A DNA stretch of 64,000 nt from Methanospirillum hungatei (GTDB lineage: Archaea > Halobacteriota > Methanomicrobia > Methanomicrobiales > Methanospirillaceae). Within the stretch, counting starts at the first letter, position 1; each line of letters opens with the position of its first letter. The position numbers were made by a program, and so were the translations under genes. The stretch spans positions 2,170,001-2,234,000 of the forward strand of contig NZ_CP077107.1 of assembly GCF_019263745.1 (NCBI RefSeq), written 5' to 3'. This document shows, piece by piece, positions 30,996 through 34,951 of the stretch. The notes beneath the pieces were generated by a model. The model did no database searches. It had not been told where the DNA came from and saw only the letters and a list, made by a program, of their open reading frames with translations.

Positions 30996-31832
30996 TCAGG
31001 TGCCGGATGAATACGCTCCGGTAAGGATTTTTCCCAGTTCGTTTAAATTTCTGCTTAATCCCTCTTTTGTGGATGACAAGGGTACAATATATGGATTAAC
31101 ATCAGAATGCATAACTAAAGAATGGACACCATAGACGGATTGAATTACATCTCTGGTAATTACGTTCCTTGGATCTCCTGCCGTAAAGATCTTCCCATCT
31201 TTCATGATAATTACCTGGTCGGCATATCGCATTGACATATTCAGATCATGACTGACCAAAACGATCTGCAGTTTTCCATAATCAACAAGCCCTCTTAACA
31301 TCTCCATAACCTCTAACTGATGCCGGATATCAAGATTTGAGGTGGGTTCATCAAGCAGGAGAACTTCTGGCATCTGGGCGAGACCCCGTGCAATGAATAC
31401 CTTTTGTCGTTGTCCCCCGCTGAGTTCATCAATATACCGGAGAGCGATATCTTCTAAGTCCATAAAGTGTAGAATGTTAGAGACAATATCAAGATCATTT
31501 TTTGCAGAAGAAAGTTTGGAATGAGGGTGACGCCCGAGAAGTACAACATCCATCACCGTCAGAGCAGGAATATCGTCACGTTCCTGGGGAACAAACCCAA
31601 TCTGTCTGGCGATCTCATTGATGTTCATATGAGCGACTTCTTTCCCATTCAAAAGGATGACTCCTTTTTGAGGAGAAATTATCCGGTTCATGCAGTGAAG
31701 GAGCGTTGATTTACCAACTCCATTCGGTCCGAGTATGCAAATCAGCTTTGAGTGTCCTAAATCCAGGCAGATATCATCAAGGATCTTCTCACTTGAATAG
31801 GAAAATTCAACGTTTTTAAAACAGATTTTCAT
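30996..31832 (-). CDS. ABC importer ATPase, iron-siderophore/cobalamin type
   Basis: The protein has 278 residues. Walker A GPNGVGKST (near 35), signature LSGGQRQKVFIARGLA (near 138), Walker B VLLLDEPTSNLD (near 158) and switch His VLVSHDLNMS (near 191) are all intact. The family powers uptake of iron chelates, haem or vitamin B12 through FecCD/BtuC permeases. It is the last gene of a four-gene operon after the binding protein, methyltransferase and permease. The C-terminal 30 residues go beyond the usual domain. Confidence 0.93.
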   Translation of the reverse strand: MKICFKNVEFSYSSEKILDDICLDLGHSKLICILGPNGVGKSTLLHCMNRIISPQKGVILLNGKEVAHMNINEIARQIGFVPQERDDIPALTVMDVVLLGRHPHSKLSSAKNDLDIVSNILHFMDLEDIALRYIDELSGGQRQKVFIARGLAQMPEVLLLDEPTSNLDIRHQLEVMEMLRGLVDYGKLQIVLVSHDLNMSMRYADQVIIMKDGKIFTAGDPRNVITRDVIQSVYGVHSLVMHSDVNPYIVPLSSTKEGLSRNLNELGKILTGAYSSGT

Positions 31833-31841
31833 TCCAGAGCC

Positions 31842-32894
31842 CTACCATATTTCCTTCTTTCTGCATATTATCAGGTACAAAAAAAGTGGACCGCCAATAA
31901 ACGCAGTAATTACTCCTACCGGTAAAATTGTCGGAGCAACAATAGTCCGTGCGACCCCATCAGCCATCATTAATAATGTAGCTCCAAATAATCCTGATGC
32001 CGGAATGAGATACCGGTGATCTGAACCAAGAAACATCCTGACCACATGAGGAGAAATCATCCCGACAAAACCTATCACACCAGTAAAACTTACAATGGTG
32101 GCTGCCGTTATAGAAATTGCAAACAATGTGATCTTTCGGGTTTTTTCTACGTTCACACCAAGACCCACTGCTCCTTCATCACCAATACTCATGACATTGA
32201 GTTCTTTTGCTTTCCAAACCAGCAGGAGACATCCAAACACGACAGAAATGAGCATATAGGGAATGACATTCCAGGTTACCTTATCTAACGTCCCTACTGT
32301 CCACATGTACACACTCTGAACATCATTGGCATCTGCGGAGATCATCATCAGGGTTGTCATCGCACTAAAAATGTACATCGTGGCAATTCCAGCAAGAATC
32401 ATCATTGATGGGGTTGGTTTTCTCATTTTTGAAAGCGACATTATCACAAACATGGGTATCAGGGAAAAGATGAATGCATTCAAAATGATGGCTACATCCC
32501 CAAACATGGCTCCTATACCCCCGATTATTGCAACAGCAGCTCCAAATCCTGCCCCTGTAGAGATTCCGGTCGTGTATGGATCAGCGAGAGGGTTTTTCAT
32601 AATCCCTTGCATTGCTGATCCGGCGACTGCTAACCCTATCCCTGCCAGGATTCCCCCAATAATCCTGGGAAGCCGGATATTCATGATTACATGTTCCTTT
32701 ACGGTTTCCGGATCACTCAGGTGCAAAAGACGGCTTAAAAGAACCTGATATGATTCAATGAAAGAAAGCCCATATGAACCGAGGCTCATTGAAATGCCGA
32801 TAATTCCTAAGAGGAGAAGAAAACAAACGAGAATGAAAATATACTTGGTATATATGTAGGTATGGTACCTACTCTTTACATCTTCCATATACAT
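31842..32894 (-). CDS. ABC importer permease, FecCD/BtuC family
   Basis: The protein has 350 residues and about ten membrane segments. Typical motifs are RLPRIIGGILAGIGLAVAGS near 73, ADPYTTGISTGAGFGAA near 103, and GFVGMISPHVVRMFLGSDHR near 272, which contacts the ATPase. It forms the channel for the substrate delivered by the dockerin-bearing binding protein. A 9-base gap separates it from the ATPase gene. Confidence 0.93.
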   Translation of the reverse strand: MYMEDVKSRYHTYIYTKYIFILVCFLLLLGIIGISMSLGSYGLSFIESYQVLLSRLLHLSDPETVKEHVIMNIRLPRIIGGILAGIGLAVAGSAMQGIMKNPLADPYTTGISTGAGFGAAVAIIGGIGAMFGDVAIILNAFIFSLIPMFVIMSLSKMRKPTPSMMILAGIATMYIFSAMTTLMMISADANDVQSVYMWTVGTLDKVTWNVIPYMLISVVFGCLLLVWKAKELNVMSIGDEGAVGLGVNVEKTRKITLFAISITAATIVSFTGVIGFVGMISPHVVRMFLGSDHRYLIPASGLFGATLLMMADGVARTIVAPTILPVGVITAFIGGPLFLYLIICRKKEIW

Positions 32895-32960
32895 CTGGAT
32901 TTGAGAAAACAGAGATCATTTCAAAGATTGAATGTAAATATCCATGACCTGTGCAGGGTT

Positions 32961-33722
32961 TTATAAATCGTTGTCTATCTTCCCTTTCACACCGCTGACA
33001 AGGAAATAGTCCTTCCAGTACCCATGTTTGATGAGCCGGGTCCCACTTAATACACGCCTTTTCAAACCTTCTTTTGCAGTGATATCAATAAAACCCACTT
33101 CTTTCATCATTTCTAGATCAGCAGATGGACGGATTGCATGAGAGGACCATAAATTCAGGCGGGTTTCATCTTCGAATCCATGTGAGTAAGGATTTCGAAA
33201 TTCGGTAATCAATATCAACAATTTAGATAAATCGCTCCATCTGCGTCTGAACCAGGAATTTTTGAGATCCGTATACCAGTTTCCATCAATATACACAACC
33301 TTTCCCCCAGGTTTTACCACACGATACCATTCGTGTAAGGCTTTTTCTGGATGTGGTATCGTCCATAATGCAAACTTGCTCACAACTGCATCAAAGGAGT
33401 TATCAGGAAATGGGAGGGACTCTGCATCTCCCTTTTGAAATTCAATTGATTGTTTGAATCGTTTACAATTCTCAATCGCTTCTTTGAGCATCCCATCAGA
33501 ATTGTCTACCCCGGTGACATCATGACCAAGATATGCCAGTTGTAAAGCTACAACTCCAGGACCGGTCCCTACATCAAGAACTTTTAATTTTTTAGTCCCG
33601 AGTTCCCCTGAAAAAATGGTTTGCCATCCTTCCCGCTCATATCGCTTGGAAAGACCTGTCTGGACAAATTTACTATACCCGAATGACTGGTTTGTCCATG
33701 CATCTGCTATCTCTTCTTTCAT
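32961..33722 (-). CDS. SAM-dependent methyltransferase (UbiE-like) in the importer operon
   Basis: The protein has 253 residues. The SAM-binding motifs are clear: VLDVGTGPGVVALQLA (near 48), GVDNSDGMLKEA (near 70), GDAESLPFPDNSFDAVV (near 98) and VVKPGGKVVYIDG (near 135). The substrate is unknown. ATG 33722 is chosen because it overlaps the stop of the binding-protein gene as ATGA, so the two are translationally coupled; a longer reading would overlap it by 46 bases. It may modify the imported ligand or a chelator. Confidence 0.87.
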   Translation of the reverse strand: MKEEIADAWTNQSFGYSKFVQTGLSKRYEREGWQTIFSGELGTKKLKVLDVGTGPGVVALQLAYLGHDVTGVDNSDGMLKEAIENCKRFKQSIEFQKGDAESLPFPDNSFDAVVSKFALWTIPHPEKALHEWYRVVKPGGKVVYIDGNWYTDLKNSWFRRRWSDLSKLLILITEFRNPYSHGFEDETRLNLWSSHAIRPSADLEMMKEVGFIDITAKEGLKRRVLSGTRLIKHGYWKDYFLVSGVKGKIDNDL

Positions 33723-34951
33723 AATGCAAACCCATAGTTGGATACATCCAGTGAAATACCGCAAAATCTGTCGATATAGTCCTGGTGAATCTTCTGTGGA
33801 TTGAGATCTTCAAAGAGCTCAGGATAGAACCATTTTGCTTCGTATGCAATTGAAACCAGATAGGAGGCTCCATTGGTGATATCAAATGCGAGAACGTGAA
33901 TATTATCATTTTTCGCCGAACTGGTGACACGGAATGTATCTTTCACCAGGTCAAGACGTTCCTTGAGCGGAGTAATATTTGCATTGTATCCAGCTGTTAT
34001 GATGCTGATGATATGGTCAGGATCTTTTTGAATGGCCCATTCTGTGTCATACACCGGATAAATTCCTTCATCAAGTTCTCTTCCGATGTTCACCGCTCCA
34101 GCTATCTCTGAGTTCTCTAAGTCACCGCTTCCAACTCCCCGTGCTTTATTTCCGACAGAGTCTAACAGGACTGTTACTTTTTCATCTTCAGGAATGGCTC
34201 CCACCCTGGTCTGAATGTCATGGAGGATATCATCATGCCATTTCAGGTATTCATATGCCTTGTCTTCTTTCCCAAGGATATAACTGAGAACGAGGATACC
34301 TGATATGGTCTTTCCAGACTCCCATGATGGAAGACGAACTACGTCAATACCTGCTAATTTATTCTCTAATTCTGGATCATATGAATTACGAGTTCCGGTG
34401 TAGAAAACATCTGGCTTGAGGGCTAATATCTTCTCGGCATCCGGTTTAAAGCGGTCACCAAAAGATGGCAGGTTACATAACTCTGGAAAGAACGTAGGAT
34501 ATTTGGCAATTGCATCATCAATACCAATTATTTTATCTGCAGCTCCAAGGACACGAACAATTTCTGCATATTTTGTGTAGGATACTACGATTGATTCAAC
34601 AGGCAGGGTGACAGAACTATCCTGTCCGTCAATATCAACATAATGCAATTTTGTCGCCGTATGATCCATAATTGCCTGGATCTGCTTGATGTCGTCTTCA
34701 GATATTACTCCATCCAAATTTGCATCTGCAAGAATCGTCTTCTCTTTATTTCCGGCAATTATTCCATTAATGTAGTCAATGTCCTGTTCATCTATCACCA
34801 GATCTCCATTCGCATTTCCATACACCGTAAGGGTAATAGATGACATCTTGTCCCCGAAATCCTGCGATGATGCATCAACTGCTCCGAATATCAATCCTAA
34901 TACCATCAATGCGACAAGAAGTCGAGCTCTCAAAACAATTTTTTTTGACAT
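33719..34951 (-). CDS. dockerin-bearing periplasmic binding protein of an ABC importer
   Basis: The protein has 410 residues. A signal peptide or anchor (residues 8-27) is followed by a type I dockerin-like pair of calcium loops: NANGDLVIDEQD (46-57) and DANLDGVISEDD (76-87). The rest (about 115-400) is an iron/cobalamin-type binding protein: VVSYTKYAEIVRVLGAADKI, ALKPDVFYTG and VTVLLDSVGN. It captures the ligand outside the membrane. The dockerin may tether it to a cohesin-bearing surface partner. It is the first gene of the operon; a TATA-like ATTATAATATA lies at 34977-34987. Confidence 0.88.
   Translation of the reverse strand: MSKKIVLRARLLVALMVLGLIFGAVDASSQDFGDKMSSITLTVYGNANGDLVIDEQDIDYINGIIAGNKEKTILADANLDGVISEDDIKQIQAIMDHTATKLHYVDIDGQDSSVTLPVESIVVSYTKYAEIVRVLGAADKIIGIDDAIAKYPTFFPELCNLPSFGDRFKPDAEKILALKPDVFYTGTRNSYDPELENKLAGIDVVRLPSWESGKTISGILVLSYILGKEDKAYEYLKWHDDILHDIQTRVGAIPEDEKVTVLLDSVGNKARGVGSGDLENSEIAGAVNIGRELDEGIYPVYDTEWAIQKDPDHIISIITAGYNANITPLKERLDLVKDTFRVTSSAKNDNIHVLAFDITNGASYLVSIAYEAKWFYPELFEDLNPQKIHQDYIDRFCGISLDVSNYGFAL

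Follow-up and report, generated by a model that had tools for sequence, protein, structure and literature searches.

Dockerins on nutrient receptors are as such already known from ANME archaea, where dockerin-bearing substrate-binding proteins are common according to a published study (PMC9012536). A 2017 review states that it is not known what cohesins and dockerins do outside the cellulosome (PMC5244752). Within the dockerin repeat, positions 10 and 11 have an established role in cohesin recognition (PMC8063739), and a putative one is assigned to positions 17, 18 and 22 (PMC3413522); in B. cellulosolvens, the binding face of one repeat was blocked by polar replacements at its positions 10/11, with Ser-Asp in place of Met-Ala (PMC8063739). 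Here we describe a dockerin-bearing receptor of Methanospirillum hungatei, encoded together with a methyltransferase and the permease and ATPase of an importer in a 64,000-nucleotide stretch of contig NZ_CP077107.1 (positions 2,170,001 to 2,234,000), the whole of which we call the window. Our analyses suggest that this receptor carries an orphan dockerin that probably binds no cohesin.

The receptor (Peripla_BP_2/FecB class, 410 amino acids, 33719 to 34951 on the minus strand; PF01497 E 3.2e-14) is built from a signal peptide, a dockerin-type module and a ligand domain that begins at about residue 114. A module profile places the dockerin-type module at about residues 38–106, i.e., at 34634 to 34840 on the minus strand (C1:2204634-2204840). 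Two calcium loops of the pattern DxNxDGxxxxxD, each followed by a helix, lie exactly at residues 46–57 (NANGDLVIDEQD) and 76–87 (DANLDGVISEDD), where an earlier note on this DNA had put them. Although 11 receptors of the genus share just 27–38% identity with the window protein, none of them deviates at the nine calcium-ligand residues (46, 48, 50, 54, 57, 76, 78, 80 and 87), and this conservation suggests calcium binding by the module. When a profile of 11 congeneric N-terminal modules was compared with the PDB, dockerins were found best (E 1.8e-6); almost all of the first 18 matches were dockerin-bearing chains, and EF-hand proteins appeared only above E 0.1. PF00404 (Dockerin_1) matched all 11 profile members, with a best value of 1e-6. 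The window copy alone matched it weakly (E 0.13, under the Pfam cut-off), and a Pfam scan of the window receptor at E 0.1 showed no dockerin, a false negative if taken alone; two paralogous receptors of the same genome exceed the Dockerin_1 cut-off. By profile, the N-terminal module hence is a dockerin. The earlier note had named another EF-hand-like fold as the outcome that would speak against dockerin-type loops, and the PDB profile, PF00404 and the invariant ligands instead uphold its assignment. A calmodulin-like EF-hand was rejected, as EF-hand models matched at most three of the 11 members, and weakly, and EF-hand chains in the PDB ranked far below dockerins. Furthermore, the segment preceding loop 1 (FTLxIYGNAN) is short and, as read from the sequence, leaves no space for a long entering helix, so that a dockerin F-hand fits better than a calmodulin-type EF-hand. 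In other genera of the order, FecB-type receptors have a shorter N-terminal extension with one EF-hand-like calcium loop in the same place (L073, L077, L084, L085, L088, L091, L093-L095, L097).

To describe the putative cohesin-binding face we used the Kyte-Doolittle mean over 12 residues, namely positions 10, 11, 17, 18, 21 and 22 of both repeats, position 21 being our own addition. All 22 receptor dockerins from cohesin-bearing genomes were hydrophobic at these positions (+0.05 to +0.95), whereas all 32 from cohesin-less genomes were polar or acidic (−3.13 to −1.24), with no overlap between the two groups. The window module, with EQNGAG/EDQADH at the 12 positions and a mean of −2.07, falls within the cohesin-less group and far from the other, and cohesin-compatible residues were not found at its recognition positions. 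The split also occurs inside a single genus (g81), where the cohesin-less genome G250 scored −1.72 versus +0.54 to +0.95 in four cohesin-bearing ones. Sequences outside this first set form a partial hold-out, many of them coming from genomes already in it. Here, 23 of 23 cohesin-less sequences were polar (−3.13 to −1.28), the new genomes G180 and G272 included, and 16 of 19 from cohesin genomes were hydrophobic (+0.31 or more). The three exceptions are long NikA-type frames of cohesin-bearing genomes with polar faces of −0.28 to −1.26 (G325, G357 and G407; L247, L244 and L240); G357 and G407 have hydrophobic-faced dockerins besides the polar NikA-type ones. Both groups retain the core and, apart from some drift at position 78, the calcium ligands.

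The cohesin domain PF00963 was detected neither in the complete genome of the organism nor in 11 congeners, in a survey that found it in 35 of 149 relatives and in the positive control genome G456, which we take to be Methanosarcina acetivorans C2A. A second cohesin profile (A3) was derived from seven Methanosarcina and family f18 cohesins; run against eight genomes of the genus, it returned no credible match (best E 0.22). The genome without detected cohesin also encodes, at C1:475,218 (L001:1486-3141), a subtilase-like protease whose C-terminal dockerin-type module lies over the Pfam cut-off.

In relatives, the picture is different. A receptor-type dockerin is present in 37 of the 393 genomes of the phylum sample, and in the 28 loci examined it sits on FecB-type receptors. 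PF00963 occurs in 18 of these 37 genomes (G278 was later counted as cohesin-bearing too, from a partial A3 match), and in 15 of the 18 the cohesin lies 231–1,060 bases from the receptor-type dockerin; the remaining three are G204, where the dockerin position is not listed, and G252 and G293, fragmented assemblies with the two on separate contigs. Four Methanosarcina-like genomes (L205-L208) have the cohesin gene directly before the dockerin receptor, in the order cohesin, dockerin receptor, DUF4198, methyltransferase, an extra gene, permease and ATPase, with DUF4198 not called in L205, the extra gene only in L207 and L208, and the ATPase in three of the four. In L206, the cohesin protein is 204 residues long and matches PF00963 (E 7.4e-12) as well as a PGF-CTERM motif (E 4.4e-7). 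Two loci of family f18 (L209, L210) carry a cohesin protein and a scaffoldin, i.e., cohesins plus a dockerin, upstream of the dockerin receptor, and further on a dockerin NikA-type receptor, the methyltransferase and Nik permeases. The gene arrangement of cohesin anchor, dockerin receptor and methyltransferase is real in these relatives, and the receptor dockerin there probably docks onto the adjacent membrane-anchored cohesin. The earlier note had proposed a nutrient receptor tethered to a surface cohesin scaffold as a new arrangement; as gene adjacency it thus exists in Methanosarcina-like relatives, but not in M. hungatei, where cohesins are absent at profile level.

The four open reading frames that the earlier note had read, the receptor among them, all lie at their stated coordinates on the minus strand. 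The methyltransferase (Methyltransf_11, 253 amino acids, 32961 to 33722; PF08241 E 2.4e-28) is a class I enzyme dependent on S-adenosylmethionine (SAM), as indicated by PF08241 and the glycine-rich motif I VLDVGTGPG; it reached no NCBIfam equivalog, and its PDB matches lie mainly over the SAM domain. Its ATG overlaps the receptor stop codon (TTATGA), which makes translational coupling of the two genes plausible. After a gap of 66 nucleotides follows the FecCD/BtuC-class permease (350 amino acids, 31842 to 32894; PF01032 E 1.3e-87), and 9 nucleotides further the FecE/BtuD-class ATPase (278 amino acids, 30996 to 31832; PF00005 E 4.9e-31). With PF01497, PF01032 and PF00005 all over their cut-offs and encoded together, the cluster specifies an importer of the FecBCD/BtuFCD class. 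Among NCBIfam models, the ATPase came closest to those for ATPases of F420-0, ferric dicitrate and haem importers, without reaching the cut-off of any. An Rfam scan of the window gave no matches.

Across the phylum, methyltransferases of this family recur with two unrelated importer types, FecBCD and NikABCDE. Five close family members are found in the M. hungatei genome, four of them in an importer cluster at 997–1,015 kb. Importer genes are present in 16 of 20 neighbourhoods that were picked purely for the similarity of their methyltransferases, the order being mostly NikA-methyltransferase-NikB-C-D-E. Among 84 family members, 69 lie within 2.5 kb of importer genes (39 beside Nik-type, 30 beside Fec-type), a raw count that is biased upward, as this larger set includes loci chosen for their receptors. 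The earlier note had held that absence of the methyltransferase from related operons would refute its idea, and the survey shows the opposite. On a quick tree, the importer type switches between Nik and Fec at least six times, and the types are clustered (0 of 500 shuffles were as low). The window methyltransferase falls into a clade of nine with 97% support, which includes family f22 genes located directly after dockerin receptors; Methanosarcina methyltransferases form a separate clade. A scan of genome contigs with the methyltransferase returned only two unrelated bacterial enzymes. Other methyltransferase families also adjoin FecBCD importers, one like C1:1108224-1109060 and one O-methyltransferase-like with PF00891 (C1:1,105,129-1,109,060 and C1:2,557,806-2,560,847 in the same genome; L036, L039, L133, L134), and the link between importers and methyltransferases is hence wider than the window's family. 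In the M. hungatei genome, FecBCD importers are densely clustered at C1:985,000-1,025,000 (L032-L034), where three further dockerin receptors are encoded together with methyltransferases from several families, at least seven in number, and with two ABC half-transporter pairs of exporter-type fold (ABC_membrane plus ABC_tran).

Concerning the substrate, the nearest solved relatives of the receptor in profile searches are iron/siderophore binding proteins, with BtuF much weaker. Neighbours of the family also hint at metals: CbiM, NikABCDE, DUF4198, DUF364/DUF4213 'heavy-metal chelation' proteins, nitrogenase-like genes and ABC half-transporter pairs. From both observations we assume, with moderate confidence, that the importer takes up a chelated or complexed metal, and with the same confidence that the methyltransferase acts on the chelating ligand. 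A cobalamin-specific importer was considered but is not favoured, as BtuC/BtuD models scored far below cut-off and iron/siderophore binding proteins were closer than BtuF. What the earlier note had called a metal/cobalamin-type importer can thus be kept as a FecBCD-class importer, presumably for chelated metal, and cobalamin has no advantage over other chelates as its substrate. Genes of nitrogenase-like type (NifH-like plus Oxidored_nitro) were seen in or beside dockerin-receptor, FecBCD or NikABCDE-methyltransferase clusters at L130 and L132 (G009), L116 (G134) and L180 (G224); L130 also encodes a DUF364/DUF4213 protein.

As a whole, we read the cluster as a FecBCD-class metal-chelate importer with a companion cytoplasmic methyltransferase and an orphan dockerin as spacer, and we consider this reading somewhat probable. 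The importer would most likely bring in a chelated or complexed metal, and the methyltransferase would probably act on the imported chelating ligand in the cytoplasm, e.g., to release or trap the metal. The dockerin of the genus, with cohesin and recognition face both missing, would no longer be a cohesin plug; the calcium-binding module kept by the receptor would instead set the ligand domain apart from the signal peptide, as a stabilised spacer or foot. Several points weigh against this reading. The sequences behind the split of recognition faces are related and represent few contrasting lineages, so that the Mann-Whitney p of 5e-10 should not be taken as a real probability. Strong constraint on the calcium ligands suggests that the module still has a partner or a structural task. 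Two single-sequence AlphaFold2 models had pLDDT values of 34 and 31 and were both unusable. For 15 of the 84 methyltransferases there was no importer gene nearby in the DNA examined, Nik/Opp-type importers can also carry peptides, and ligand as well as methyl acceptor rest on inference.

The constraint would also fit a module that still works as a plug, with a socket that sequence profiles miss, be it a very diverged cohesin or another fold, e.g., of the sheath or an S-layer. Not only are the calcium ligands invariant, the dockerin also exceeds the ligand domain in conservation by a factor of 1.6–1.8, in cohesin-less and cohesin-bearing genomes alike. Moreover, a lipobox or a hydrophobic C-terminus, as another evident anchor, is missing from all 14 FecB-type receptors scored in the genome, dockerin-bearing or not, and for the window receptor neither a lipobox nor a C-terminal membrane segment was found. 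However, the recognition positions are polar and differ among paralogues of the genus, the profile from Methanosarcina and f18 cohesins came back empty, and most FecB-type receptors of the genome are without a dockerin as well as without an anchor. We hence regard a hidden socket as unlikely, albeit deserving of real weight. Methanospirillum cells live inside a protein sheath, and this sheath may retain free receptors without a tether. That the receptor is held by an ordinary cohesin scaffold at the surface, with its gene in another part of the genome, as the earlier note had imagined, appears very improbable: the gene arrangement is real in relatives, but neither the complete genome nor the 11 congeners encode a detectable cohesin, and the recognition face is lost. 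A different alternative concerns the methyltransferase, which instead of acting on an imported compound could help to make a secreted chelator, a metallophore that the importer retrieves. Near paralogous importer clusters there are indeed ABC half-transporter pairs and an MFS protein, a position in which export genes might be found. Yet the operon has no other biosynthetic gene, the methyltransferase gene usually lies inside or beside the importer operon, and a nicotianamine-type metallophore was rejected after a search of the genome for nicotianamine synthase found none; we consider a metallophore pathway rather doubtful.

Beyond the single locus, we propose tentatively, with less confidence than for the window cluster itself, that receptor dockerins of archaeal metal-chelate importers exist in two states legible from about 12 residues: hydrophobic and docked to a neighbouring membrane-anchored cohesin, or, in lineages without cohesins, polar and orphaned, with calcium sites kept for another use. 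Both would be accompanied by a shared family of methyltransferases that switches between the two unrelated importer classes and processes the imported chelate. The survey suggests one job for non-cellulosomal modules, namely holding nutrient receptors at the membrane in archaea without an outer membrane, and a short residue signature separated cohesin-bearing from cohesin-less genomes for receptor dockerins. To produce methane, methanogens need nickel, cobalt, iron and either molybdenum or tungsten. The survey also brings out a methyltransferase family linked to metal importers in these organisms; its action on the imported chelate would, if the proposal is true, represent a new ligand-processing step in methanogen metal uptake. 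In the openly accessible literature we found no reports of the pairing of methyltransferase and importer or of the split in recognition faces. Both ideas can be tested in a genetically tractable organism, Methanosarcina acetivorans, which appears to have such an operon.

As in cellulosomal type I dockerins, a 12-residue calcium loop with a following helix occurs twice in the window module, which also matches solved dockerins by profile. The module differs from them by its N-terminal position on a transport receptor, by the absence of a cohesin, and by EQ and ED at positions 10/11 in place of their cohesin-binding residues. All three component families of FecBCD/BtuFCD class importers are found in the window cluster, to which the extra dockerin module of the receptor and the coupled methyltransferase are added. 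BtuFCD with CbiZ is an importer with a built-in ligand-modifying enzyme, an amidohydrolase. The window cluster resembles it in that the genes of a cytoplasmic enzyme and of an importer for what is likely its substrate lie together; here, however, the enzyme is a methyltransferase, and it is shared by two unrelated importer classes. Closest are the cohesin–dockerin systems of ANME archaea and Methanosarcina, with dockerins on the substrate-binding proteins of metal and peptide importers and with genomes that also encode cohesins and PGF-type sorting signals (PMC9012536, PMC5244752). In contrast, the genus of the window has the receptor dockerin without the cohesin, and with a polar recognition face.

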